From the NCBI GenBank assembly GCA_913063375.1, contig CAJXXR010000016.1, positions 1 to 64,000 of the forward strand: a DNA stretch of 64,000 nt, read 5' to 3'. The position numbers and the translations under genes were made by a program. The first letter of the stretch is position 1, and the number at the start of each line of letters is the position of its first letter. This document shows positions 15,201-42,449 of this stretch, piece after piece. The DNA comes from an uncultured Flavobacteriales bacterium. GTDB lineage: Bacteria > Bacteroidota > Bacteroidia > Flavobacteriales > CAJXXR01. The notes beneath the pieces were generated by a model. It searched no databases and was not told where the DNA came from. It saw nothing but the letters and a program-made list of their open reading frames with translations.

Positions 15201-15983
15201 TTAAAAATCTTTCCTTGAGGCTTTACGAACAATTCTAAGCAATGGAAATATTATCCATAGCATCAACATTGAGAAAGATGCAATAAGTCCAAAGATGGTT
15301 CCGAAAAAATCTTTAAATACGGCACCAGTATATCCCATTAATGCAGAAATATCCAATTTCAATAGAATTAGTATTCTAGAAAGATCAACAGGATTGAATA
15401 CCGTTGCAAAAAGAGAAAATTGATCTAGTGGGTAATCGTCAAAGACAAGGAGTGAAATCAAAAAGAGCCCATCGTAAATTACAGCCATAAATAGCCACAT
15501 TAAGATAGCGTACCCAAAGCCCTTAATTTTATTTTCATTGCTAAGAGCAATATTATATGCCAGAGCAACAAAAATGAATGTTAGAAAAGCGCCAACAAAT
15601 ATGAGCGTAATAAAATTGAGTATAATCGCTGAGTTCATAATCCCATAAAAAAGAAACGGAATTCCTAACCCTAGGACCAAACTAAGACTCAAGGAAACGG
15701 AGAGTCCAATGAATTGTCCTAAAAATATAGTGCTTCTTTTGACGGGTTGAGCCAAGAGTAATTCTGTAAATTCTTTGGAATTATAATAGTACATCACTCC
15801 AAATACAGTTCCTATTAGAGGCGTTAAAATGACTATTATATTCATAAGAGTAATAATGGCCTTATCCAAATTGTTGTTCAGGAAAAGCAATACAAAGCCT
15901 AATAGGAGATAGAATACAAAATAGGCGTAGCTCCATCTGCTTCGCATCAAGTCGTAAAAACTATATTTTAGTATCTTAATCAT
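15201..15983 (-). CDS. nosY: NosY, ABC transporter permease for N2O reductase maturation
   Basis: Inner-membrane permease that works with NosF and NosD in assembling the copper-sulfur CuZ site of NosZ. About six hydrophobic segments are visible across 260 residues (for example 20-36, 45-67, 92-115, 124-146 and 158-178, plus one near 235). KSFTELLLAQPV-like sequence (KEFTELLLAQPVKRS) is typical of ABC-2-type NosY permeases. It is the last gene of the operon and overlaps nosF by 8 bp. Confidence 0.9.
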   Translation of the reverse strand: MIKILKYSFYDLMRSRWSYAYFVFYLLLGFVLLFLNNNLDKAIITLMNIIVILTPLIGTVFGVMYYYNSKEFTELLLAQPVKRSTIFLGQFIGLSVSLSLSLVLGLGIPFLFYGIMNSAIILNFITLIFVGAFLTFIFVALAYNIALSNENKIKGFGYAILMWLFMAVIYDGLFLISLLVFDDYPLDQFSLFATVFNPVDLSRILILLKLDISALMGYTGAVFKDFFGTIFGLIASFSMLMLWIIFPLLRIVRKASRKDF

Positions 15984-16683
15984 ATTGTACGTTTAAAAGA
16001 GCTGCAATAGCATGTTCCAAGTCCTGTTCGTTGTAGGTCTCTTTTAATAATTTTACACTTCCCTTGAAGTAGATTTTTCCATCCAGTAGAAATACAATTT
16101 CGTCTGAAATTTCTTCCACGAATTGCATGATATGGGAAGTAATGAGTATGGTTTTCCCTTTTTCTTTGGCCTCCTTAATTAAGGATTTCAAATGGATTAG
16201 AGATAAAGGGTCTAATCCCGTTGTGGGTTCATCCAGAATCAAAATAGGATCGTCAAACATAAAGGTTAGAATAATATTGACTTTTTGACGGGTACCTCCA
16301 GAAAGGTTGGCCAACTTCTTATTCAGAAAGGGTTGTAGCTTAAATAGCTCAACTAAGTCCCCATCCCTGGTCTTACTATTCCTAATATTCTTGATCATTT
16401 CAATTACCTCAATTACCGATAGGTTACTGGGGAAATTGGCAATCTGCGGAAGGTAATTTATCTTTTGTCGATGTTCCCATTGTCCTTTTGTGGACTTTCC
16501 ATCGATTAAAATTTCTCCCTTATCAGGAACCACCATTCCTAGGATGCTTTTTATTAAAGTAGTTTTACCAGAACCATTTGGACCAAGAATCGCAAAAATA
16601 CCACTGTCTTTAATCGTAAGGTTTAGTTCTTTCAAGACAGGAACCTTACCAAATGTTTTATGTAGGTCTTTGATTTGAATCAT
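15976..16683 (-). CDS. nosF: NosF, ABC transporter ATPase for N2O reductase maturation
   Basis: ATPase subunit that powers the NosDFY complex. Walker A GPNGSGKT is at residues 34-41. The signature is LSGGTRQKV and Walker B is ILILDEPTTGLDP. Length 235 aa, short as usual for NosF. It overlaps nosD by 4 bp (ATGA) and nosY by 8 bp, which indicates translational coupling. Confidence 0.93.
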   Translation of the reverse strand: MIQIKDLHKTFGKVPVLKELNLTIKDSGIFAILGPNGSGKTTLIKSILGMVVPDKGEILIDGKSTKGQWEHRQKINYLPQIANFPSNLSVIEVIEMIKNIRNSKTRDGDLVELFKLQPFLNKKLANLSGGTRQKVNIILTFMFDDPILILDEPTTGLDPLSLIHLKSLIKEAKEKGKTILITSHIMQFVEEISDEIVFLLDGKIYFKGSVKLLKETYNEQDLEHAIAALLNVQYD

Positions 16684-17912
16684 CTTACTTCTCTCATCAT
16701 AGGGTTATTGTCTAGCAGATTGTCCGGGGTAAATATTGGCGATACTTTCTCAGAAAAATTGATCATATCGACAAATAAGCTCCTTAGGAGAATTATAGTT
16801 TCAGGAGTTCTGTTTACGATATATGAAAATAGTTTTACTGGTCGGTAAGGGATGTCTCCAACCCCATTTTTGTCTAGGTCATATCCTGTATAGGAACTCC
16901 AATAATTTTGATCAAATTGGTTCTCATTTAAATTTCCTTGATAGGAGATATCAAAGGTATTGAAGAGAAAATTATTTTGTTTAAAAATATTCTTAAAACA
17001 GGCTCCCCTTACTTTTACAGCCCAACCATTTCTTACAAAATTGTTATTGAAATAGTTTATTCTGTTTGTGCCTTCAGCGTGAATACCTATTGTATTTTCT
17101 TCGAATAAGTTCTCTTTTATTTCTGCATCATTTATTTCTTTGAGCAGTAGTCCATAAGAAGAAGAACCCCAATTTTTAATAAAGGTGTTGCGGATCATTT
17201 TGATCTTTTTTGAGAACATTACTGCAACTCCCGCTCCATTATCCATAAAGGTATTGTTGATGTACTCATCTTCATGGGAGAACATAAAATGTAGACCGTA
17301 GCGTAAATTATCTGAGCATATATTATTTTCTATTCTACTTTTATCTACAAATTCAAGGTATATACCATCTCGCTGACCAGAAACGTTATTTCCTACTATT
17401 TCAATCATTTTACTATGCCATAAATGAATCCCGTTTCCAGAGTTGTGCTCACTTTCAGATACAGAATGTATGGTATTGTTTCGTATGATGCCTCTTTTGG
17501 ATTTTTCTACAACAATCCCAAAAAATACATTTTCGAAATGATTATTTTCAATTATAAAGCCTTTTGTCTTATGGAGTTTAATAGCGGCCCAATCTTTTAT
17601 ATAGCTTTTACCGACATTCTGGATTCGTAAGCCTCTTATGTGTACACTGTCGGATGTAATGATTATTATACCTCCAGCTTCATTGCCATCTATTATAGCA
17701 CCAGGTTCACCTTCGATCTGAATCTTTTTATCGATCACTAAATCATTGACTAGATAGACGCCCTTTTTTATCAGTATATGTGTTCCGTCTTCTGCCTTTT
17801 CTACTGCACTTTGCACAGTGTTTATTGGGCATTCAGGGCATACTGTTAGTTGTCCAAAACAGGAGAGTATAGGGCATAGAAAGCCTATTATGTAAAGAAT
17901 GAGTCTGTACAT
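16680..17912 (-). CDS. nosD: NosD, periplasmic beta-helix copper-site maturation factor
   Basis: Periplasmic right-handed parallel beta-helix protein that interacts with NosFY and NosZ during CuZ assembly. An N-terminal signal peptide (about residues 1-20) is followed by many NosD/CASH-type helix turns such as IENNHFENVFFGI, IRNNTIHSV and IEENTIGIHAEG. The C-terminal NYWSSYTGYDLDKNGVGD is highly characteristic of NosD. Length 410 aa. Confidence 0.95.
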   Translation of the reverse strand: MYRLILYIIGFLCPILSCFGQLTVCPECPINTVQSAVEKAEDGTHILIKKGVYLVNDLVIDKKIQIEGEPGAIIDGNEAGGIIIITSDSVHIRGLRIQNVGKSYIKDWAAIKLHKTKGFIIENNHFENVFFGIVVEKSKRGIIRNNTIHSVSESEHNSGNGIHLWHSKMIEIVGNNVSGQRDGIYLEFVDKSRIENNICSDNLRYGLHFMFSHEDEYINNTFMDNGAGVAVMFSKKIKMIRNTFIKNWGSSSYGLLLKEINDAEIKENLFEENTIGIHAEGTNRINYFNNNFVRNGWAVKVRGACFKNIFKQNNFLFNTFDISYQGNLNENQFDQNYWSSYTGYDLDKNGVGDIPYRPVKLFSYIVNRTPETIILLRSLFVDMINFSEKVSPIFTPDNLLDNNPMMREVR

Positions 17913-17936
17913 ATTGGTAATTTAAGAAAGAAATAT

Positions 17937-18380
17937 TTAGTGTACCTTATAACTACTCAATAATTCGCTCCAATCAAGAAGTTCATCTTTTTCAGACTTA
18001 ACCAATGTATTGGCTTTTTGGAGCGATTTAAAGGCTGTAAGATTTGCGCCCATTGGACTTTTAATTTGTGGGCTGATTAGATAACTCGCCTCTGAAGCAG
18101 GAATCAAAACTCCTGGGTTATCAAAGTCATTTACCAAAAAAAGGGAGACCTTTTGTGTGTCAAAATCCTTGAGATGATTTGCCATACATTCAATGGCATC
18201 ATACTTATAGGATTTTCCCTTTTTGGTTACTATTTGGGCGGCATGTTGCTGATCTACTATGGTCATTTTACAGAAATGACAGGCGTCAGATCCATAAGCC
18301 ATTTTCGAAGGCTCTATACTACAACTTACTACTAAGCTTATTAAAAAGCTCACTAACAATATAGCGCTTAGTTTTTTCAT
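17937..18380 (-). CDS. nosL: NosL, copper-binding lipoprotein
   Basis: Lipoprotein that delivers Cu(I) to apo-NosZ through NosD. The lipobox ends at Cys20 (LVVSC). The copper-binding region has CHFCKM (C34, C37, M39), followed by the AAQIVTKKGKSYKYDAIECM stretch typical of NosL. Length 147 aa. It overlaps the preceding membrane-protein gene by 4 bp and is followed by nosD after 24 bp. Confidence 0.93.
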   Translation of the reverse strand: MKKLSAILLVSFLISLVVSCSIEPSKMAYGSDACHFCKMTIVDQQHAAQIVTKKGKSYKYDAIECMANHLKDFDTQKVSLFLVNDFDNPGVLIPASEASYLISPQIKSPMGANLTAFKSLQKANTLVKSEKDELLDWSELLSSYKVH

Positions 18381-18952
18381 GACCTTTCCTTTTTTAGAGC
18401 GACCACATAGGCCGTCAGGGTTAATGCCAAACCAGTAAGCATGAAATATGCTCCAGTAGCAGGTAGGGAAATGGCATTGAAATTAAGGATTTTTTTACTT
18501 CCAATAAGTGGTGGTTGATAGGCTTGACCTGGGATTTTAATGGCTGCTTTGGGGTTTAAATTATGGCCATAGTCATATTCCCATAGATAGAAATCATACA
18601 TGCCTGCAATACCTAAAATTAGGATGAGTATAAACCATCCAAGGAATAGGTTTTTCTTACCACTGAATCCTATAAGGATTCCTAAAATTGACATTCCTGC
18701 AATTACAATAGGGAAGATTTCGAATTCTTTCATTTCTGTTGTGATCTCTTTCATCCCAACATAATGATTCATAAGATTGATATTTTGAATATCGCCCTTA
18801 TTTGTTCCAGTTAGTTTTGTTATCCAGATGTCCATACCTAATGGAGTTGGATATTGCGGTGCTTCTAGGGTAATATTCCACAATGGGAATACGAATAAAC
18901 TGAGAAGCAGGGCAGAACCTAAAATCATTAATATTTTGTGTAGTGATTTCAT
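18377..18952 (-). CDS. Four-helix membrane protein of the nos operon (NosB-like candidate)
   Basis: A 191-residue inner-membrane protein with four predicted helices (about 7-25, 79-97, 102-123 and 164-186). Large extracytoplasmic loops contain YPTPLGMDIWITKLTG, NHYVGM and DYGHNLNPKAAIKIPG. It sits between nosZ and nosL, overlapping nosL by 4 bp. In clade II nos clusters a multi-helix membrane protein called NosB follows nosZ, so this is a positional candidate for the same role, perhaps in electron transfer or assembly. I cannot establish homology by reading. Confidence 0.8.
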   Translation of the reverse strand: MKSLHKILMILGSALLLSLFVFPLWNITLEAPQYPTPLGMDIWITKLTGTNKGDIQNINLMNHYVGMKEITTEMKEFEIFPIVIAGMSILGILIGFSGKKNLFLGWFILILILGIAGMYDFYLWEYDYGHNLNPKAAIKIPGQAYQPPLIGSKKILNFNAISLPATGAYFMLTGLALTLTAYVVALKKERS

Positions 18953-19046
18953 AACTGTTGGTTCTTTAGAGGTTTTAAAATATAGGGGACAAAAGGAGAA
19001 GCCCCCTATATTATTGATAGATGAATATCATCTAATCATAGCATTG

Positions 19047-21032
19047 TTATAGTTCTTCCTCGTCATCTTCTCCTAGAGACCAAGTAAGTGGTGTATTTGA
19101 ATTTTTAGGAGATACGCGGATGTATCCTTGCATCTCTTGGTGTAATGCTGAACAGAAATCTGTACAGTAGAATGGAATAACTCCTTCAAACTGTGGTTTC
19201 CATAAAAGTGTCTCAGTTTGACCTGGCATTACAAGTATTTCTGAGTTACGAGCACCCATTACTGAGAATCCGTGCGGTACATCATAATCCTGTTCAAGGT
19301 TGGTAACATGCCAATATACATTATCGCCAACTTTGATTCCTTCAATATTATCCGGAGCAAAGTGACTTCTAATCATTGTCATATAAACATGAACATCATT
19401 ACCATCTCTTACTACCTTCGTTTCAGATTCGTTTTGGACACCATAAGGATGTTTGTTTTCTTCTAATTCATAAATCTTACGTGACTTAGGAATAATCTTA
19501 GAAGCTTCAATACCCTGTGCATAATGCGGTTCACCAATAGTAGGGAAATCAAGCAATAATTTCATTTTCTCTCCACTAATATCAAACAACTGTGCTGATT
19601 GTGTTACCTCAGGTCCAGTAGGTAGGTATCTATCTTTGGTGATTTTGTTCAGTGCAACTAGGTATTTTCCGTTTGGATTCTTAGAATCTCCACCAGGAAT
19701 CATCAAGTGACCGATAGAGTAGTAAGTAGGTTGTCTATCCACTACTTCCCAAGTTCCCAATTTCCATTTTACTACTTCAGAAGTAATAAAGAACGAAGTG
19801 TAAGCATTACCTCTTCCATCAAATTCAGTATGAAGTGGTCCTAATCCTGGTTGTTCAACAATACCAGCAATAATCTCATCCATTTTTAAGATAGGAATAC
19901 CGTACGCATCACCAGCAAAGCTTTCGTTTTCGATAGCCTTCATCACTTTAGTGAAAGAGTGTACAGTAAGGTTGGCAGATAATTTACCATTCCCAACAAT
20001 GTACTCACCAGATGGATCTACATCTACTCCGTGGGGAGATTTTGGGGTAGGAAGGAAATAAACTAATCCAGGGCAATCCGCTGGATCTAGAACACGAACA
20101 GTCTTCTTCATGACAGATGTAGCCATGTGGGTATGTTCATCGTATCTATTATGTGCATAATTAACTGGAACCTCTTTGAATTTACCTTGTTTGATATATT
20201 CTTCCGCTTTTTTCCAGTTAACTGCTGCGATAAAGTCTTTATCATTTTGAGATGCACCAACTTCCATCAGTGTTCCACTCTCTTCCGTATTATAAGTAGT
20301 AAAGAATGTCCATCCATGAGATTTCCCTTTTCCAGAATGCGCTAGGTCATAATTGAAACCAGGCATTAATATTTGGAAAGAAAGGTCCATTAGTCCAGAT
20401 TCTTTGTCTACACTGATGTATGAAAGCATCCCCTTGAAGTTACCTTTATATTCCTTAATTGGCATATCTCTCTGTGGGTAAGGAACAGCAAATCTAGTTC
20501 CTGCTACAACATATTCTGTATTTTCAGTTGTAAAAGGCGAACTGTGATTCCCTCCACTATTTGGAATCTCAATGATTTCAGTTGTTTCAAATGTACTTAG
20601 ATCAATTTTGGCAATACGAGGTGTATTGTTACCATTGATAAAAACAAATCGTCCATCAGTTTCACCATTCGTTTGTGACAATTCTGGATGGTGTGAATCA
20701 TCCCAAGGGATGTGTCCAAAAGAGGTATTCAACATTGGTTTGGTTTCTTCATTGAAACCGTACCCTTTTTCCGCATCTAAAGAGAATACAGGAATTACTT
20801 TAAATAGTCTACCAGAGGGGAGCCCATACACTGACATTTGTCCACTAAACCCACCAGAAACCAATGCGTAAAATTCATCGTATTCACCCGGCTTAACATA
20901 TACACTAGAGGCTGCATCCGATTCTAGTGCCCCTGAGTTTGAAGTAGTCTCTTGACTATTTCCTTGGCTACAACTTACAACTGTTGCTGACGCAATAGAA
21001 AGTGCAAGTATTGATTTGATTAGTTTTTTCAT
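19047..21032 (-). CDS. nosZ: Nitrous oxide reductase, clade II (Sec-dependent) with lipobox
   Basis: Reduces N2O to N2, the last step of denitrification. The N-terminus is a Sec signal with a lipobox (TVVSC, Cys21) and not a twin-arginine signal; this and the gene order mark it as clade II. The beta-propeller domain holds CuZ histidines such as H114-H115 in DDSHHPELSQTNG. The C-terminal cupredoxin domain carries the CuA ligands H587, C623, C627, H631 and M634 in CTDFCSALHQEM. Length 661 aa. The acidic C-terminus is EDDEEEL. The lipobox predicts a membrane-tethered enzyme. Confidence 0.97.
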   Translation of the reverse strand: MKKLIKSILALSIASATVVSCSQGNSQETTSNSGALESDAASSVYVKPGEYDEFYALVSGGFSGQMSVYGLPSGRLFKVIPVFSLDAEKGYGFNEETKPMLNTSFGHIPWDDSHHPELSQTNGETDGRFVFINGNNTPRIAKIDLSTFETTEIIEIPNSGGNHSSPFTTENTEYVVAGTRFAVPYPQRDMPIKEYKGNFKGMLSYISVDKESGLMDLSFQILMPGFNYDLAHSGKGKSHGWTFFTTYNTEESGTLMEVGASQNDKDFIAAVNWKKAEEYIKQGKFKEVPVNYAHNRYDEHTHMATSVMKKTVRVLDPADCPGLVYFLPTPKSPHGVDVDPSGEYIVGNGKLSANLTVHSFTKVMKAIENESFAGDAYGIPILKMDEIIAGIVEQPGLGPLHTEFDGRGNAYTSFFITSEVVKWKLGTWEVVDRQPTYYSIGHLMIPGGDSKNPNGKYLVALNKITKDRYLPTGPEVTQSAQLFDISGEKMKLLLDFPTIGEPHYAQGIEASKIIPKSRKIYELEENKHPYGVQNESETKVVRDGNDVHVYMTMIRSHFAPDNIEGIKVGDNVYWHVTNLEQDYDVPHGFSVMGARNSEILVMPGQTETLLWKPQFEGVIPFYCTDFCSALHQEMQGYIRVSPKNSNTPLTWSLGEDDEEEL

Positions 21033-21051
21033 TTTTCTAGAATTTGAAAAA

Positions 21052-21636
21052 TTACTCCTTAGTAGGAGGTAAGATTACTTTATCTACTACATGTACTATA
21101 CCGTTACCACAAGGTACACTTGCAATAATTTTTGCTCCACCAACGTAAACTTCACCGTCTTTAACCTTTATATCTACATATTGGTTATTGGCTTGACCAA
21201 GCTTTTTAAAACGCTTTAGGAAGTCTTTTTTATAGTTTCCCGGAGTCGCGTGGTACTTAATGATATTGGATAAAGCTTTTTTGTTCTCTGGTTTAATAAG
21301 ATGCTCTACAGTTCCCGCTGGCAAAAGGTTGAATGCCGCATCTGTAGGTGCAAATACTGTAAGTGGTCCTGCATTAACCAAAACATTTTCTAATTCTGCT
21401 GCTTGAACTGCTGCAACAAGTGTTTTGTGATCAGGTGAACCCATTGCAACTTGCAATATTGTTTGCTTTGAGACATCGTCTTTTACAAACGCTTGACCTT
21501 TATTGTTACCAGTTTTTTCTGTTTTTGGTTTCGCGATACTGGCAGCGCTATTTTCTTTTGGCGCGCTGTCGCTACAACTCAATAACATAACCGATATAGC
21601 AAATAAACCGGTCATCATTTTAAATAGTGATTTCAT
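21052..21636 (-). CDS. Fasciclin (FAS1) domain lipoprotein
   Basis: A 194-residue lipoprotein (lipobox MLLSC, Cys21) with one FAS1 domain at about residues 55-190. Typical motifs are NAGPLTVFAPTDAAFNLLP and, at the end, NGIVHVVDKVILPP. FAS1 domains generally mediate protein-protein or cell-surface interaction. It lies between the cytochrome c and nosZ genes with 6- and 19-bp gaps, so it is part of the nos operon. Its job there is not known to me; a scaffold for the electron-transfer proteins is a guess. Confidence 0.92.
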   Translation of the reverse strand: MKSLFKMMTGLFAISVMLLSCSDSAPKENSAASIAKPKTEKTGNNKGQAFVKDDVSKQTILQVAMGSPDHKTLVAAVQAAELENVLVNAGPLTVFAPTDAAFNLLPAGTVEHLIKPENKKALSNIIKYHATPGNYKKDFLKRFKKLGQANNQYVDIKVKDGEVYVGGAKIIASVPCGNGIVHVVDKVILPPTKE

Positions 21637-21642
21637 AGTAGG

Positions 21643-22113
21643 TTAATTTAGTGTTCGGAAAAATTCCAGAATATTTCTGGCTTCTTTTTCTGTTAAACTT
21701 TGGTTAGCCATTGGAGCACTATATTCCATTAATAATTGTTTAGCTATCGGGTTTTTCTTAACCATTTCATCTGGGTTAAGGATCATGTTCATGGTCCATT
21801 CTGGACTTCTTCTTTTTAGAACTCCTTTCATAGCTGGGCCAATGAATCTTTTGGATACTTTGTGACAAGCAGAACATTTTCCCTTGAACAATTTTTTCCC
21901 TTCAGCTACCATTGTCTGATCGATTTCAGCGGCTAATTCAACAGATTTTACTGGACCAATTCCTTTGTCATCCATTGGGTTTGAAGCTTCTTTTTTGACT
22001 TCTGTCTTAGCAGGGCCAGTCGCTTTTATGGTTTTCTTTGGGGCTTGATCACCACCACAACTCATTAATAAAAGAGTGGTTGATAGGATTAGTGTGAAGA
22101 TGCTTTTTCTCAT
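21643..22113 (-). CDS. Monohaem cytochrome c lipoprotein, likely electron donor in the nos operon
   Basis: A 156-residue class I-type cytochrome c. The lipobox ends at Cys19 (LLMSC), followed by a flexible Lys/Pro/Ala-rich linker to about residue 60. The haem motif is CSACH (C80, C83, H84), and M135 in YSAPM is the likely axial methionine. It is the first gene of the operon and likely passes electrons to NosZ. The electron-donor role follows from position and is inferred. Confidence 0.93.
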   Translation of the reverse strand: MRKSIFTLILSTTLLLMSCGGDQAPKKTIKATGPAKTEVKKEASNPMDDKGIGPVKSVELAAEIDQTMVAEGKKLFKGKCSACHKVSKRFIGPAMKGVLKRRSPEWTMNMILNPDEMVKKNPIAKQLLMEYSAPMANQSLTEKEARNILEFFRTLN

Positions 22114-22134
22114 GGTTAATTACTTTTGTTAATG

Positions 22135-22142
22135 CAAAATTA
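22135..22142 (-). promoter_or_regulatory. -7 element for the nos operon
   Basis: CAAAATTA reads TAATTTTG on the minus strand, 21 bp before the cytochrome c ATG. It matches TAnnTTTG. Confidence 0.5.
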
Positions 22143-22188
22143 GTTAAAAAAAGATAAAAAGGTCTTTTATTATGGAAAAGATTAATAA

Positions 22189-22223
22189 AATATTTAATCC
22201 TCATCAATATTTAATTAACTTTG
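22189..22223 (+). promoter_or_regulatory. rrf2 promoter with duplicated AATATTTAAT element
   Basis: TAACTTTG at 22216-22223 is the -7 element. The decamer AATATTTAAT occurs at 22189-22198 and again at 22206-22215, 17 bp apart, covering the -33 to -7 region. This is a candidate operator for the Rrf2 protein encoded just downstream. Confidence 0.45.
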
Positions 22224-22246
22224 GAGAGATAAAAGAAGAATAAATT

Positions 22247-22690
22247 ATGCTGTCAACAGGTTGTAAATACGCTATCCGCTCTGTGTTATATATTGCATTG
22301 AACGCATCGGAAGAGAAGAAGATTGGAGTGAAAGAAGTTTCAGAAGTATTGGAAGTGCCCTTTCCTTTTCTTGCTAAGCTGATGCAACAATTGACGAAGG
22401 CGAAATTAATCTCATCTACAAAAGGGCCTAAAGGTGGCTTCTATTTGAATGAGCAAGACCAAAGTAGAAATGTTTTGGATATTATTAATCTCATGGATGG
22501 CATTGATAAATTCCAAGGTTGTTTTTTGGGCTTGTCAAAATGTGACCCCGCAAATCCCTGTCCCGTGCATTTTACGGTTGCTCCATTTAAAGAGGAGATA
22601 ATGGGAAAATTTCGTGATAAGAGTATCATGGAGTTTGCGGCTGAAATAAGGTTAACGGGTAGGCATATTACTTTAAAGGATATAGTTTAA
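22247..22690 (+). CDS. Rrf2 family transcriptional regulator with three conserved-position cysteines
   Basis: DNA-binding winged-helix regulator of the Rrf2 family (IscR, NsrR, CymR relatives). The N-terminus MLSTGCKYAIRSVLYIAL and the wing GPKGGFYL are typical. Three cysteines, C92, C99 and C105 (CX6CX5C), lie where IscR and NsrR bind an Fe-S cluster, which suggests sensing of NO, oxygen or Fe-S status. It is divergent from the nos operon across 133 bp and is the obvious candidate to regulate it. Length 147 aa. Confidence 0.92.
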   Translation: MLSTGCKYAIRSVLYIALNASEEKKIGVKEVSEVLEVPFPFLAKLMQQLTKAKLISSTKGPKGGFYLNEQDQSRNVLDIINLMDGIDKFQGCFLGLSKCDPANPCPVHFTVAPFKEEIMGKFRDKSIMEFAAEIRLTGRHITLKDIV

Positions 22691-35044: not shown

Positions 35045-35617
35045 TTATCTTTGAGTATTATAACACCTTCGGCATAAAGGTCGGTAATTATCTTGTTCTC
35101 CTAAAAGAATTCTATCTTGAATAGGGTTTATTCGCTTTGAATAATGAGCAATTTCGCCACAATCCATACAGATTGCATGCACCTTAGTGACAAATTCAGC
35201 ACAAGCCATAAGTTGAGGGATCGGGCCGAATGGCTTACCCTTGAAGTCCATATCCAAACCTGCCAAGATTACTCTCGTTCCAGCATTTGCTAATTGACTA
35301 CAAACCTCAACTAAGCCCTCATCGAAGAATTGGGCTTCATCAATACCCAATACGTCTACTTGATTTGCTTGTAGCAGTATTTGAGAGGAATGTGAAACGG
35401 CGTTAGAGGTTATTTCATTTTTATCATGTGACACAATATTCTCTTTTGCATACCGGTCATCTACAGATGGTTTAAATATCTGCACGTTCTGTTTTGCAAT
35501 CTGTGCCCTTTTCAGCCTTCGTATTAATTCTTCAGTTTTACCTGAAAACATCGAACCCGAGATTACTTCAATCCATCCTTTTTTGAGATCTCTGTCTTGT
35601 TTTCTTTCTAGAAACAT
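35045..35617 (-). CDS. tdk: Thymidine kinase
   Basis: Type II thymidine kinase for pyrimidine salvage. The P-loop is GSMFSGKT at residues 21-28. DEAQFFDEGLVEVC is the Walker B and lid region. A zinc-binding lasso is seen as CMDCGEIAHYSKR with a second CRRC pair near the C-terminus. Length 190 aa. It is the first gene of an apparent tdk-murF/alr operon. A decayed repeat of an LTD gene starts immediately upstream. Confidence 0.95.
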   Translation of the reverse strand: MFLERKQDRDLKKGWIEVISGSMFSGKTEELIRRLKRAQIAKQNVQIFKPSVDDRYAKENIVSHDKNEITSNAVSHSSQILLQANQVDVLGIDEAQFFDEGLVEVCSQLANAGTRVILAGLDMDFKGKPFGPIPQLMACAEFVTKVHAICMDCGEIAHYSKRINPIQDRILLGEQDNYRPLCRRCYNTQR

Positions 35618-35620
35618 ATA

Positions 35621-35850
35621 GGTCGATTGGTTAAAGCTTAATTTTTTCTATGAATAGAAATCTAGCTTACGGAATTGCTATTCATGTGACTCTTTGGCTG
35701 TTTATTTTGTGCCTTAAAACAGCTAATGAGATAATAAATGTACTATAAATTAAGATGCAAATAAAATATATTAGGCTTCTCGGGTTACTAGAGATTGGAA
35801 TTCATTATGCTTCAGTTTTTATTGATTTCCACAATGTGGATTATTCAAAA
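35621..35850 (+). repeat. Left copy of a ~230-bp direct repeat flanking pyruvate carboxylase
   Basis: Aligns nearly gap-free with 39784-40012. Shared blocks include GGTCGATTGGTTAAA versus GGCCGATCGGTTAAA, AAAACAGCTAATGAGATA and GATGCAAATAAAATATA versus GATGCTAATAAAATATA. It covers the upstream leader and first ~30 codons of the LTD gene. Similarity continues, with deletions, to about 36045. Confidence 0.85.
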
Positions 35851-36045
35851 GGGGGAATGATTCTGGCCAGCTAATCTTCTATAGTTCTGATGGGGTACTG
35901 AAAAATGATGTTTTAGTTAAGGTTGATAGAGTCTCTGGTACATAGAGAGGCCTATAACGCTAAACCAGTTTTGACAATTATAACAAGGTATCCTTATCTA
36001 AGAAGAAACATTTATTGGTGAAATATTGGATATGACATGCAATGA
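35755..36045 (+). pseudogene. Decayed 5' fragment of a lamin-tail-domain T9SS gene
   Basis: The ATG at 35755 opens a frame (MQIKYIRLLGLLEIGI) that aligns with the intact gene at 39918 (MLIKYSRLLVFLMVGI). At TTATTCAAA (35841-35849) the sequence jumps to what corresponds to 40281 onward, a 277-bp deletion that shifts the frame; a stop follows at about 35872. A further ~10-bp deletion lies near 35900. Recognisable similarity fades out near 36045. The rest of the gene is missing. Confidence 0.8.
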
Positions 36046-36166
36046 AAAGGAATGTTTAAAATTAAACGGAAAAAGGGTTTAAAATGGAATTCATTTAATA
36101 AATAATTCAAATAAATATTTTAATTTTATTTCGACAAACCTAAACCAGTAAGACCCCATTTCCAAA
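36046..36166. other. AT-rich upstream region of pyc
   Basis: No further LTD-gene similarity is seen. The stretch is very AT-rich and must contain the pyc promoter, but no clean TAnnTTTG element was identified; CGACAAACC near 36133 is not a match. No RNA gene is apparent. Confidence 0.4.
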
Positions 36167-39100
36167 ATGAAAATTAAAAAAGTATTAGTTGCTAATCGCG
36201 GTGAAATAGCCATCCGAATATTCAGAGCTTGTGTTGAGATAGGTATTAAAACAGTTGGTATCTACACCTTTGAAGATCGTTATTCATTACATCGTTATAA
36301 ATCTGATGAGTCCTACCAAATAGGTAAAGACAATGAGCCTTTAAAGCCTTATCTGGATATTGATGAGATAATAAGGGTTGCAAAGCAAAATAATGTTGAT
36401 GCGATACATCCAGGCTATGGATTCTTGTCGGAAAATGCAATGTTTGCTCAAAAATGTGAGGAAAATGGTATCATATTTATCGGACCTAAAGTAGAAGTTT
36501 TAAATGCATTAGGGGATAAAATCATGGCAAAGCAGGTTGCTGTTAATAATAATATTCCCATAATAAAAAGCAATACTGAAGACCTTGTAACGATTGATAT
36601 AGCGCTGTCAGAGGCTGAGAAGATTGGATATCCAGTCATGCTAAAGGCTGCGTCAGGTGGTGGTGGACGAGGAATGCGCGTGATACGACTAAAAGAAGAA
36701 TTAGAAAGTGCATTTGCTGAGGCAAAACGAGAGTCGCTGAATGCCTTTGGAGATGACACCGTTTTTTTAGAAAAGTACGTTGAAAATCCGAAGCATATTG
36801 AAATTCAGATTGTCGCTGATAATTTCGGTAATACGGTTCATTTATTTGAACGTGATTGTTCGGTACAGAGGCGTTATCAAAAGGTTATTGAGTTTGCACC
36901 TTCTTATGGTTTAGATCAAGAAACAAAAGATAGTCTTTATGAATACGCTCTTAAGATCTGTAAGGCAGTAGATTATAATAATATTGGGACTGTAGAATTC
37001 TTATTAGATGAAGATGGGAGTATTTACTTTATTGAAGTTAATCCCAGAATACAAGTAGAACACACTGTCACTGAAATTGTGACAAATATAGATTTAGTTA
37101 AGGCTCAATTATTTATTGCTGGAGGCTATAAACTTTCCGATCAGCAAATAAAAATTAAAAATCAAGAAGCAATAAAGGTCACGGGGTATGCATTACAATG
37201 TCGTATTACCACGGAGGATCCTTCCAATGATTTTAAGCCAGATTATGGGACTATATCAACCTTTAGAAGTGCTTCAGGATTTGGGATACGTTTGGATGCC
37301 GGTAGTTTATATCAAGGTGTAAATGTGTCTCCTTTTTTCGATTCGATGCTGGTTAAAGTATCTGCCAATAGTAGAACATTAGATGGCGCTTGTAGAAAGA
37401 TGCAGAGAGCTTTACTTGAATTTCGAATTAGAGGCGTTAAAACCAATATAAACTTTTTAGATAATATTTTAAAACATCCAACCTTTAGGGCTGGGAATGT
37501 TACAGTTAACTTTGTTAAGAATGAGCCTTCACTATTTAAGTTTACTGAATCTAGAAATAGAACAAGTAAGTTAGTTGAAATTTTAGCAGAAACTATTGTT
37601 AATGGTAATCCCGATATCAAGAACAAAATTGATAATAAGACATTCTTAAAACCTAAGGTGCCAAGTTTTGATAAATCATCTACCTACCCAAAAGGGACTA
37701 AAGATTTGTTAACTGAGCTTGGACCAGAAAAGTTTTCGCAATGGTTGAAAAATGAAAAGAAAATTCATTTCACAGATACCACAATGCGGGATGCACATCA
37801 AAGTTTATTGGCAACTCGAATGCGTACTTTAGATATGGAACAAGTAGCGGAAGGTTTTGCAAAAAACCATCCGGAGATCTTTAGCATGGAAGTCTGGGGA
37901 GGAGCTACATTTGATGTGTGTTTACGTTTTTTGCAAGAGAACCCTTGGGAACGATTGAGAATATTACGAAAAGCCATGCCGAATGTGTTATTACAGATGC
38001 TAATAAGAGGATCTAATGGCGTTGGATATACAGCATACCCTGACAATTTAATCGAAAAATTTGTTGAGCAATCATGGGAAAACGGCGTAGATGTTTTTAG
38101 AGTGTTCGATTCTTTAAACTGGATGAAGTCTATTGCGCCATGTATAGAACATGTTAGGACTAAGACAAATGGGCTAGCCGAAGGTTCTATATGTTATACA
38201 GGCGATATACTGAATCCTAATAAATCAAAATACGATTTAAATTATTATATACAGTTAGCAAAAGACATTGAAAATGCTGGCGCACATATATTGGGGGTAA
38301 AAGATATGGCTGGTTTATTAAAACCAAATGCTGCATTTGAATTAATTTCTGCATTAAAATCGGAAATTAATATACCCATTCACCTACATACACACGATAC
38401 GTCTTCTGTACAAGCAGCTATGTATTTAAAGGCAGCAGAAGCTGGTGTCGATGTAATAGATGTAGCATTAGGAGGCTTGTCTGGCCTTACCTCTCAACCA
38501 AATTTCAACTCTATATTAGAAATATTTCGTTTCCACGAGCGTGAAAATGATTTTAACACAGAAAAGCTTGCGGAATATTCAGATTATTGGGAGTTAGTAA
38601 GAAACTATTATTATCCTTTTGAATCTGGATTAAAAGCAGGGACGGGAGAAGTTTACAAGCATGAAATACCTGGTGGACAGTATTCAAATTTAAAGGGTCA
38701 AGCCATAGCTTTAGGTTTAGAAGACAAATTCCCTGAAGTCACTAAGATGTATGGAGAAGTAAACAACCTTTTTGGAGATATTGTGAAAGTAACGCCTAGT
38801 TCTAAAGTAGTAGGAGATATGGCACAATATCTTATTAGTAACAATTACACGACTCAAGATGTACTAGATAAAGGAGACACGATGTCCTTTCCTCAATCTG
38901 TGATAGGCTTCTTTAAAGGTGATTTGGGACAACCGGTGGGTGGATTCCCTGAGGAATTGCAGAAGATTATATTAAAACAAGAAACACCCTATACAAATAG
39001 GCCAAATGCTCATTTGGAACCAATAGATTTTGAAAGTGAATTCGAGGTATTTAAGCGCACTTTTTCTACGGGAATGGGTAGAGCGTTAGAAATAACAGAT

Positions 39101-39619
39101 TTCCTTTCCTATAAATTGTACCCTAAGGTATTTACAGAAGCTCATAACAAACACATGAAGTATGGCAGCGTGATGAATATCCCAACCAAGAATTTTTTCT
39201 ATGGTATGGAGGTAGGCGAGGAGATCATGGTGGAGCTAGATAAAGGTAAGAATGTTTTGATCTCATTAGTCTCTGTAGCAGAGGCAGATAGTGAGGGGAA
39301 TGTTGGAGTCTTATTTAAGGTAAATGGACAATTGAGGAATGTGATTGTTAAGGATGAATCTATCAAAATTTTTAAAGTAGAGAATGTAAAGGCAGAAACA
39401 GATAACGAGAAGGAAATAGGTGCACCATTACAGGGGTTACTTTCAAACGTCTTTGTTAAAAAGGGGCAAAAAATAAAAAAGAATGATCCCTTGTTTGTCA
39501 TTGAGGCAATGAAAATGGAAACAACCGTTATGTCACATTTTGAGGGCGTTATTGATAAGGTGCAATTAAAGTCTGGAGTAATGGTAAATACGAGTGATCT
39601 AATTATCGTTTTAAAATAA
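36167..39619 (+). CDS. pyc: Pyruvate carboxylase
   Basis: Biotin enzyme that makes oxaloacetate from pyruvate, bicarbonate and ATP to refill the TCA cycle. Domains in order: biotin carboxylase (about 1-450; ATP-grasp loop ASGGGGRGMRVI), carboxyltransferase (about 530-800; FTDTTMRDAHQSLLATRMRT and LGVKDMAGL), the conserved carboxylase region, and a C-terminal biotinyl domain with EAMKMET and biotin lysine K1116. Length 1150 aa, the full single-chain form. It stands alone between direct repeats of an LTD gene, which suggests it arrived or was duplicated with that gene. Confidence 0.97.
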   Translation: MKIKKVLVANRGEIAIRIFRACVEIGIKTVGIYTFEDRYSLHRYKSDESYQIGKDNEPLKPYLDIDEIIRVAKQNNVDAIHPGYGFLSENAMFAQKCEENGIIFIGPKVEVLNALGDKIMAKQVAVNNNIPIIKSNTEDLVTIDIALSEAEKIGYPVMLKAASGGGGRGMRVIRLKEELESAFAEAKRESLNAFGDDTVFLEKYVENPKHIEIQIVADNFGNTVHLFERDCSVQRRYQKVIEFAPSYGLDQETKDSLYEYALKICKAVDYNNIGTVEFLLDEDGSIYFIEVNPRIQVEHTVTEIVTNIDLVKAQLFIAGGYKLSDQQIKIKNQEAIKVTGYALQCRITTEDPSNDFKPDYGTISTFRSASGFGIRLDAGSLYQGVNVSPFFDSMLVKVSANSRTLDGACRKMQRALLEFRIRGVKTNINFLDNILKHPTFRAGNVTVNFVKNEPSLFKFTESRNRTSKLVEILAETIVNGNPDIKNKIDNKTFLKPKVPSFDKSSTYPKGTKDLLTELGPEKFSQWLKNEKKIHFTDTTMRDAHQSLLATRMRTLDMEQVAEGFAKNHPEIFSMEVWGGATFDVCLRFLQENPWERLRILRKAMPNVLLQMLIRGSNGVGYTAYPDNLIEKFVEQSWENGVDVFRVFDSLNWMKSIAPCIEHVRTKTNGLAEGSICYTGDILNPNKSKYDLNYYIQLAKDIENAGAHILGVKDMAGLLKPNAAFELISALKSEINIPIHLHTHDTSSVQAAMYLKAAEAGVDVIDVALGGLSGLTSQPNFNSILEIFRFHERENDFNTEKLAEYSDYWELVRNYYYPFESGLKAGTGEVYKHEIPGGQYSNLKGQAIALGLEDKFPEVTKMYGEVNNLFGDIVKVTPSSKVVGDMAQYLISNNYTTQDVLDKGDTMSFPQSVIGFFKGDLGQPVGGFPEELQKIILKQETPYTNRPNAHLEPIDFESEFEVFKRTFSTGMGRALEITDFLSYKLYPKVFTEAHNKHMKYGSVMNIPTKNFFYGMEVGEEIMVELDKGKNVLISLVSVAEADSEGNVGVLFKVNGQLRNVIVKDESIKIFKVENVKAETDNEKEIGAPLQGLLSNVFVKKGQKIKKNDPLFVIEAMKMETTVMSHFEGVIDKVQLKSGVMVNTSDLIIVLK

Positions 39620-39670
39620 ACATAGTTTTGGTAGCGTAGGTTCTAGCCTCGTTATAAAAATTTCATAATT

Positions 39671-39713
39671 GAAAAGCAGCCTTTGAATTTGTATTCAGAG
39701 GCTGCTTTGTTTT
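39671..39713 (+). terminator. Terminator after pyc
   Basis: AAAGCAGCCTTTGAAT and ATTCAGAGGCTGCTTT form a 16-bp stem with one mismatch, followed by GTTTTAT. Confidence 0.82.
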
Positions 39714-39783
39714 ATAGTATATCATCATTTGAAGTGGAATAAATTATTAGAACCAATACTTGTTTTGTTTCTAGGGATATAAT

Positions 39784-40012
39784 GGCCGATCGGTTAAAAC
39801 TAAAAACATTTTCATGAATAAAAACCTAGCCTATAGAGCTTCCATTCATGTAGTTTTTGGGCTGTTTTTTTGTAACTTAAAACAGCTAATGAGATATTTA
39901 ATGTAATATATATTAAGATGCTAATAAAATATAGTAGGCTGCTGGTGTTTCTAATGGTTGGAATTCTGAATGCTCAAGTTTTTGATGATTTCCAAGATGG
40001 GGATTATTCAAA
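39784..40012 (+). repeat. Right copy of the direct repeat flanking pyc
   Basis: Intact counterpart of 35621-35850. It spans the leader and signal-peptide region of the LTD gene. The leader contains two inverted repeats kept in both copies: CATGAAT/ATTCATG (39813-39850) and GCTGTTTT/AAAACAGC (39861-39886). Confidence 0.85.
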
Positions 40013-42449
40013 TAATCCTGTTTGGTCTGGGGATACAATGGACTTTAAAGTGAACAATGATTTTACACTGCAATTATTTGCAGATCCTCCTAGTGGATTA
40101 TCTCGTATTTATACCGTAAATCAAGCAATTAGTAATGCAATTTTTGAATTCAATATAAAGCTTGACTTTAACCCATCTTCTCAGAATTATTTAGAAGTAT
40201 ACCTACAGGTAGAGGGCGTTGATTTTGAAACTTCAGATGCCGTTTTTCTTAGAGTTGGAGATAGTCAAGATAGAATAGGGTTATTCAAAAGGGTAAATGG
40301 TTCTAACGAATTAATGTTCGATAGTTCTGATGGACTATTAAATAATTCTGAAAATGATGTCCAGGTTAAAGTTACCAGAAATTCTGGAGGTTTATGGAAG
40401 GTTGATATTGCTTTAAACGGGGGGCAAATGGAGACCATTGGTCAAGGGATTGAAGTAGGCATGTTGTCGACAAATTATTTTGGATTCGATTGTCATTATA
40501 CAAGCACCAGGAGTACGAAGTTCTATATAGATAATATTCAAATTGAAGGGAGTCCATTTTTAGATATAGAGGCTCCGGAGGTTATAGATTTTCGGAGGTT
40601 GGATTCATTTCAGGTGCTTTTGAATTTTAATGAGCCATTGGATACTCAATTTATAGTTAGTGAAATGTTTCAGATGGAGCCTGCAGGGAATGTGAAATCT
40701 CTTATATATAATGTCCTGGATTCAAGTGTTGTTTGTGAAATAAACCAGTTGGATTGGAATCAGGAATCAAGCATTAAAATAGGGCCTTTACAAGATCTTT
40801 CAGGAAACAGCTTAGCGGACACCAATTTTTCAATAAGATGGCAAAAGATATACCCGAGTGACCTTTTGATAACAGAGATAATGTTTGATCCTGAACCGTC
40901 CGTATACCTGCCTGAATTTGAATATATAGAATTGTACAATACTAAAGATTACCCATTGAGTTTGGAGGGCGTTCAATTATCAATAGATGGGAAGACTACG
41001 GTGTTTGGTATCGACTCTATTTTACCAAAATCGTATCTCGTTGTTGGAAGTATGGCGGAAGAGGTTATGCTATTAGGTGTTGATCAATACATAGCTTTGG
41101 GATATTTCCCATCAATGAGTAATACAAGTAGTTTCCTCTCACTCAAGACGGCTGAAAATGTATTTGTTCATGGGGTGAAATATGATAAGTCCTGGCATAT
41201 TAAAGCTAAACAAAATGGAGGTTGGTCACTTGAAATGATTGATCAAGAATTATATTGTTTGTCGGAGGAAGGATGGGCTTCTTCAAGAAGCTTACAGGGA
41301 GGATCTCCAGGCAGGATGAATGTCGCCTTGGATTCTATGATTGATCTACAAAATGAATACTATTTGGAGGTGAATGGAGTGCAGGAAATTGTACTTACCT
41401 CACTATTTGTAATGGAGGATCCAAATTGGGAAGACCCCAAAAGTTTTGTGCTAAATGGTGAGTATAGAGTGAATGAGGTAGAACGGGTTTCTGAACGTAG
41501 TATTTTGTTAAGAACAGATATGCCACTGTCTTTAAGAACAGGGTATCAATTGGGAATTACTTTCTTGTCCAATAATTGCTTGAATGAACAAGAAGGGGGA
41601 GTCCTAGTGAATTTTAGTCTTCCCGAGATGCCGAAAGCTGATGAAGTAAAAGTCTCTGAAATCTTATTTAATCCTTTAGATGGGAAAGAGAAATTTATTG
41701 AGTTTGTTCATGAAGGAATGTATCCTATAGATTGTTATGATTTGCTTTTAGGGCAAAAAAATGAAGCCGACCATACCTGGAGTTATTACAATATTACAGG
41801 AAATCATGAAATATGGTATCCAGATGATTTCTTGGTTGTGACTACATCAGTAAATGGTCTTCGGGATCAATACAATTGTGGTGAAAGGGTTAAAATCATC
41901 GGTTTGAAATCCTTTCCTAGCTTACCTATTTCAGGAGGTCAAGGTGGACTTTTTAGACGTAATCACATAGCCTTAGATACCTTTTGCTATGAAGACGATT
42001 GGCACGCTGGACACCTGCTAAGTACGAAAGGAGTTTCCTTGGAGCGGATAGATTTCAATGCCAATCCTTGTCTTGAATCAACGTGGGGATCAGCCTCAGA
42101 AAATTCGGATTATGCTAGTCCAGGATCTGTCAACAGTTATCATGAGATTTCTAATAATGGAGCTCGGCTATCTATTTCTTCAGATATCCTTGCTCCGAAT
42201 TTGAAATTCTATGAAATAATAATTTCTTTCAACCTCATTAGTCCTGAAGAAAAACTATCTATTGAAGTTTATACCATAGATGGTATCCTTATAGCGGTTT
42301 TAGCTAGGAATAAATTCGCACTAGGGAAGGGTAATTTACAATGGACTGGTGAAGGCCTAGCAGTGGGAAGTTATATCTTGATGGCGGCCATTGAAAAAAA
42401 TGGAAAGCAGGTGATTAAAGAAAAATGGCTGATTAATATTCGTCTTTAA
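39918..42449 (+). CDS. Secreted lamin-tail-domain protein with C-terminal sorting region
   Basis: An 843-residue exported protein (signal about residues 1-19, ending NAQ). The first ~200 residues resemble a concanavalin-like/glucanase sandwich (VFDDFQDGDYSNNPVW). Two lamin tail domains follow: about 312-430 (LLITEIMFDPEP, FEYIELYN) and about 573-690 (VKVSEILFNPLDGKEKFIEF). The last ~95 residues look like a FlgD-like or T9SS type A-like tail (LSIEVYTIDGILIAVLA ... GSYILMAAI). It likely ends up on the surface or in the medium. The function is unknown. It overlaps the convergent hydrolase by 17 bp. Confidence 0.88.
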   Translation: MLIKYSRLLVFLMVGILNAQVFDDFQDGDYSNNPVWSGDTMDFKVNNDFTLQLFADPPSGLSRIYTVNQAISNAIFEFNIKLDFNPSSQNYLEVYLQVEGVDFETSDAVFLRVGDSQDRIGLFKRVNGSNELMFDSSDGLLNNSENDVQVKVTRNSGGLWKVDIALNGGQMETIGQGIEVGMLSTNYFGFDCHYTSTRSTKFYIDNIQIEGSPFLDIEAPEVIDFRRLDSFQVLLNFNEPLDTQFIVSEMFQMEPAGNVKSLIYNVLDSSVVCEINQLDWNQESSIKIGPLQDLSGNSLADTNFSIRWQKIYPSDLLITEIMFDPEPSVYLPEFEYIELYNTKDYPLSLEGVQLSIDGKTTVFGIDSILPKSYLVVGSMAEEVMLLGVDQYIALGYFPSMSNTSSFLSLKTAENVFVHGVKYDKSWHIKAKQNGGWSLEMIDQELYCLSEEGWASSRSLQGGSPGRMNVALDSMIDLQNEYYLEVNGVQEIVLTSLFVMEDPNWEDPKSFVLNGEYRVNEVERVSERSILLRTDMPLSLRTGYQLGITFLSNNCLNEQEGGVLVNFSLPEMPKADEVKVSEILFNPLDGKEKFIEFVHEGMYPIDCYDLLLGQKNEADHTWSYYNITGNHEIWYPDDFLVVTTSVNGLRDQYNCGERVKIIGLKSFPSLPISGGQGGLFRRNHIALDTFCYEDDWHAGHLLSTKGVSLERIDFNANPCLESTWGSASENSDYASPGSVNSYHEISNNGARLSISSDILAPNLKFYEIIISFNLISPEEKLSIEVYTIDGILIAVLARNKFALGKGNLQWTGEGLAVGSYILMAAIEKNGKQVIKEKWLINIRL

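Follow-up and report, generated by a model that had tools for sequence, protein, structure and literature searches.

A full-length pyruvate carboxylase gene (pyc) in an uncultured Flavobacteriales bacterium sits between two same-orientation copies of one stretch of DNA. We consider it likely that the gene was acquired horizontally and that at least 0.63 kb of target was duplicated when it integrated; no mobile element is visible. The window analyzed is a stretch of 64,000 nucleotides from the draft genome of this host. Transferred genes mostly carry no clue to their route of entry; here the scar of integration can still be read around a large gene of central metabolism. The event is of a clear but ordinary kind. 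An earlier note on this DNA had proposed that the layout marks a past rearrangement around pyc, and the analysis supports that proposal.

The duplicated tdk-LTD border

Two intact genes define the host sequence around pyc. Upstream, on the minus strand, lies the thymidine kinase gene tdk (35045..35617; Pfam PF00265 and NCBIfam NF003296 above cut-off), and downstream, on the plus strand, a gene for an 843-aa lamin tail domain (LTD) protein (39918..42449; PF00932 above cut-off). The repeat occupies 35596-35938 in its upstream copy and 39759-40387 in its downstream copy, both read on the plus strand, with about 80% identity. In a gapped alignment with blocks joined from 35596, the copies score 243.5, against 54.5 for the highest of 200 shuffles. 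The first block (35596-35849 = 39759-40012; 79-81% identity) is recovered by blastn at 79% over 254 bp (E 2.9e-53) and includes an ungapped core of 81% identity (35693-35849 = 39856-40012); two further ungapped blocks pair 35838-35906 with 40278-40346 (77%) and 35902-35938 with 40351-40387 (70%). Beyond these, 35939-36045 aligns with the corresponding LTD stretch no better than background, 105 of 500 random windows aligning as well, which places the right edge at about 35938 and not at 36045. The earlier note had described 35621-36045 as a degraded, same-orientation copy of the front of the downstream LTD gene; the relationship is borne out, with both edges redrawn.

The left edge of the repeat, 35596, falls within tdk. 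The first 22 bp of the gene (35596-35617) recur at 39759-39780, with 18 of 22 positions identical (P about 1e-7); apart from tdk itself, no site in the window matches the tdk start better, and the next best reaches 15/22. The downstream copy is thus headed by a seven-codon fragment of the tdk start on the minus strand, and the duplicated unit is the tdk 5' end, the spacer and the LTD 5' part. Because the upstream copy has lost 277 bp, the original unit measured at least 629 bp, as retained downstream. By blastn, the repeat has only two copies in the whole genome, and in the 397 other genomes of the order we found no copy, only scattered short matches of about 27-82 bp.

The thymidine kinase N-terminus M-F-(L/I)-E is conserved among relatives, which identifies the repeated piece of tdk as old tdk coding sequence. 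Since the repeat begins inside this conserved part, the upstream copy, beside intact tdk, is in its native place, and it is the downstream copy whose tdk end is broken. The full LTD gene is joined to the downstream copy. This layout is the picture expected of an insert with a duplicated target.

The upstream copy decays like a pseudogene. Its internal 277-bp deletion, at about 35838-35849, removed sequence between two short direct repeats (GGATTATTCAAA / GGGTTATTCAAA), and the remnant of the LTD reading frame (35755..35938, plus strand) reaches a stop after 39 codons in translation and is unlikely to code for anything. Within the LTD part, differences between the copies number 15, 14 and 18 at first, second and third codon positions, with no third-position excess, and the distance between the copies is 0.21 per site for the leader and 0.28 for the coding part. 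For this small sample, the values fit neutral decay of an initially identical copy.

The host genome is a draft of 34 contigs with 83% completeness, a setting in which an assembly artefact or contaminating sequence has to be weighed. However, pyc lies within a single 65-kb contig, with a diverged copy of the host tdk-LTD border on each side; copies of about 80% identity do not mislead assembly, and a chimera would account for neither the decay of a copy nor the broken tdk end. We therefore regard this explanation as very improbable.

The border itself appears to have a longer history. Relatives keep the order of tdk with murF/alr, and relatives of the LTD protein, at 21-36% identity, occur in other families of the order (f1, f2, f8, f9, f12, f13, f14 and f15). 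In four relatives, one each from f15, f4, f9 and f8 (L286, L287, L288 and L289), the LTD gene is not beside tdk, so the adjacency of the two is particular to the host lineage among the genomes examined. From its N-terminal sequence, the head-to-head or next-but-one partner of tdk in those four genomes looks like rsmI. In the host, LTD holds the usual place of rsmI at tdk (35617), and an earlier rearrangement would therefore also have touched the tdk border. We infer the ancestral tdk-LTD junction from the tdk fragment alone; a tdk-LTD junction lacking pyc was found neither among the 398 genomes of the order nor in viral contigs.

Phylogenetic placement of pyc

The window pyc (36167..39619, plus strand) encodes a protein of 1150 aa that, by its sequence, belongs to the standard single-chain pyruvate carboxylases of the TIGR01235/NF009554 type. 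Both equivalog profiles match above their curated cut-offs (NF009554, 1714.7 bits; TIGR01235, 1629.6 bits), the BC, CT, PYC_OADA and biotinyl domains are all present and in order, the biotin-attachment motif (AMKM) lies near the C-terminus as EAMKME at residue 1113, and comparison with the solved Pyc 4qsk gives about 1280 bits. The gene is apparently functional. It is followed by a probable terminator, a hairpin and then a T-rich run (39673..39709, plus strand), recognized as an inverted repeat with a predicted folding energy of -25.2 kcal/mol for 39660-39730.

In our trees, the window Pyc pairs with the Flavobacterium jejuense Pyc as its sister, nested within Flavobacteriaceae (family f3, identified through identical Pyc proteins in the tree), with bootstrap/SH-aLRT support of 100/99. 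Approximately unbiased (AU) tests reject both a grouping of the window Pyc with the sister family f15 (p 1e-4; lnL difference 332) and a Flavobacteriaceae-type Pyc clade that excludes it (p 8e-5; difference 110). A tree of MnmG and GlmS instead places the host with G001 (support 100), the only same-family genome compared, and with f15 (95), apart from Flavobacteriaceae. The earlier note held that a layout shared by all relatives, with no pyc-less junction and with pyc following the species tree, would favor an old local duplication; the Pyc tree and AU tests conflict with the MnmG and GlmS tree, and vertical descent is rejected at p about 1e-4.

Protein identities point the same way. The window Pyc is 84% identical to that of F. 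jejuense, 79-82% to those of Arenibacter and 80-81% to those of Cellulophaga and Zobellia; it shares 73-84% with most Flavobacteriaceae-type Pycs, 66-67% with two divergent ones from that family and 59-63% with Pycs of f8, f13 and f15. For host MnmG and GlmS, the values are 74-76% with G001, 69-72% with f15 and 63-70% with Flavobacteriaceae. Full-length pyc is patchy across the order (36/398 genomes), and none was found in G001, which is 99% complete. Together, the sequences indicate that pyc was acquired horizontally from Flavobacteriaceae, another family of the order Flavobacteriales. Because pyc departs from the species tree and a same-family genome lacks it, integration is favored over mere local duplication.

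A comparison of base composition and codon use with the neighbors, which the earlier note had suggested as a check, proved uninformative: pyc has a GC content of 35.9% and a mid-range codon distance, neither of which stands out, and candidate donors cover similar GC. Detection of transfer by composition is thus of no help for this gene. The F. jejuense pyc (L129, 8001-11453) sits between trxB-like and ABC transporter genes and may itself be a transferred copy.

Possible routes of integration

We propose that tdk and the LTD gene at first stood head to head in the host lineage. A pyc segment, ultimately from a Flavobacteriaceae-type bacterium, would have been inserted beside or inside the front of the LTD gene, so that each side of the insert came to carry a target segment of at least 629 bp, running from codon 7 of tdk, back across its start, to about codon 157 of LTD. 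The copy attached to the 3' part of LTD would have stayed functional, and the copy severed from LTD, beside tdk, would have been left to decay. We infer that insertion and duplication were one event. We prefer an illegitimate route: from a break in the LTD gene, or a fork stalled there, copying would have passed through an incoming pyc fragment and returned to the chromosome in tdk, about 0.6 kb further back. We favor such a one-event insertion because the donor group seems to lack a homologous arm and no vehicle genes remain, and the preference over other routes is a weak one. The final order is the same for single crossover, for template switching and for duplication with later insertion, and the three are indistinguishable here. 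One tentative conjecture is that template switching at a broken fork captured this foreign core-metabolism gene in a single step, in which about 0.6 kb of target was duplicated and the host leader was also placed upstream of pyc.

The LTD gene bears on whether the donor could have supplied homology. No LTD relative was detected at E<=1e-3 in the five Flavobacteriaceae genomes searched, nor at E<=1e-60 in any Flavobacteriaceae genome within the 398-genome sample of the order. The lack of a recognizable relative in these genomes argues against a homologous arm carried by the donor, and the Flavobacteriaceae donor probably did not supply one.

The same result weighs on a Campbell-type single crossover, in which circular DNA bearing pyc together with 0.63 kb or more of the tdk-LTD segment recombined with the chromosome by homology. 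That process predicts exactly the order observed, an insert flanked by direct repeats of the target, and the duplication is of a fitting size: in Escherichia coli, single crossovers by circularized incoming DNA left duplications of 109-950 bp flanking the insert (PMC3240628). With LTD absent from the Flavobacteriaceae genomes examined, however, pyc would have had to be linked to DNA of the recipient lineage on the vehicle beforehand. The insert holds no plasmid or element gene, no plasmid record contains a Pyc of 60% identity or more (the best is below 60%), which speaks against a plasmid vehicle, and the lack of a third-position excess between the copies gives, in this small sample, no sign of a diverged functional incoming LTD. 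We hold the single crossover possible but doubtful; as one route to the outcome proposed above, it shares part of the confidence placed in that outcome. The earlier note had named integration and local duplication as alternatives, and it is integration that gains support; its specific version, a single crossover by a molecule carrying pyc and an LTD gene, is a possible route.

Mobile elements offer little as an explanation. By reading, there is no transposase between 35045 and 43221, the repeat occurs only twice in the genome and the duplication is at least 629 bp long. An integrative element at a tRNA was likewise set aside: the window contains no tRNA and, by reading and not by profile search, no integrase-like ORF near pyc.

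Sequence between the decayed copy and pyc (35939..36166, plus strand), which matches LTD no better than background, should contain the left junction of the insert and the pyc promoter. Compared with pyc flanks in 80 Flavobacteriaceae loci, it matches only in a few bases before the start codon and in weak AT-rich similarity, and no donor-derived flanks around pyc were found in that comparison. Junction microhomology is no longer readable at the locus. The 10-mer CTAAACCAGT occurs twice in this stretch, about 180 bp apart (about 35960 and 36140), and is possibly a junction or regulatory trace, or chance. A promoter-like TTG-N20-TAnnTTTG of the Bacteroidota type lies on the minus strand at 36135-36165, directed at tdk; its TAnnTTTG site (36135-36142) was rejected as a promoter, such sites occurring at about the frequency of chance.

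The preferred insertion with target duplication resembles known systems in part. As in the E. coli single-crossover integrations, foreign DNA lies between direct repeats of the target, 109-950 bp long in E. coli and at least 629 bp at pyc, and one copy is truncated; in E. coli, however, the homology was cloned on the plasmid, and the event at pyc is old (PMC3240628). Homology-facilitated illegitimate recombination, described for Streptococcus pneumoniae, Acinetobacter baylyi and Pseudomonas stutzeri (per PMC3240628), likewise captures foreign DNA with homology on at most one side and no mobile element, but it usually leaves a deletion of similar size, where the pyc locus shows a duplication. 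Merodiploids made by transformation in S. pneumoniae (PMC3784515) also involve a direct chromosomal duplication arising during DNA uptake; unlike the pyc locus, they arise from repeats already present in the chromosome and extend over about 100-900 kb. Other horizontally transferred pyc genes of Flavobacteriales are of the same single-chain TIGR01235 type, and the window pyc differs in keeping duplicated integration flanks.

Timing, function and neighboring genes

The window pyc differs from that of F. jejuense at 67% of four-fold sites, a saturated value, against 0.21-0.28 differences per site between the repeat copies. The scar is much younger than the split of pyc from any sampled donor, a point that weighs against the reading proposed above and leaves two options: a true donor outside the sample, or an earlier entry of pyc into the lineage with a later move to this place.

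The youth of the repeat relative to the divergence of Pyc from every sampled relative also accords with an order of events in which the tdk-LTD border was first duplicated in tandem and pyc was later inserted between the copies, or was duplicated in from further downstream with deletions following. Promoter capture through tandem duplication is a known means of switching on transferred genes (PMC11111574), and pyc is indeed preceded by the LTD leader. Yet this order requires at least two events, its promoter-capture version two deletions besides, and a scan for TAnnTTTG finds no recognizable promoter left in the upstream copy. We judge it unlikely. Integration of pyc together with duplication of its target is the reading we retain.

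Searches for PEP carboxylase found none in the host draft, a provisional absence at 83% completeness, or in G001, and PEP carboxykinase is present in both. Given the lack of a detected PEP carboxylase in the host draft and its family relative, pyc may replenish oxaloacetate, and its arrival may have brought pyruvate-based anaplerosis to the host lineage.

The window also holds a nitrous oxide reductase cluster (15201-22690). It includes a Sec-dependent (clade II type) NosZ (19047-21032; TIGR04246, 937 bits) and NosD (16680-17912; TIGR04247), along with an ABC ATPase and permease, a NosL-like lipoprotein, a cytochrome c-like protein and an Rrf2-like regulator, the last four assigned by reading.
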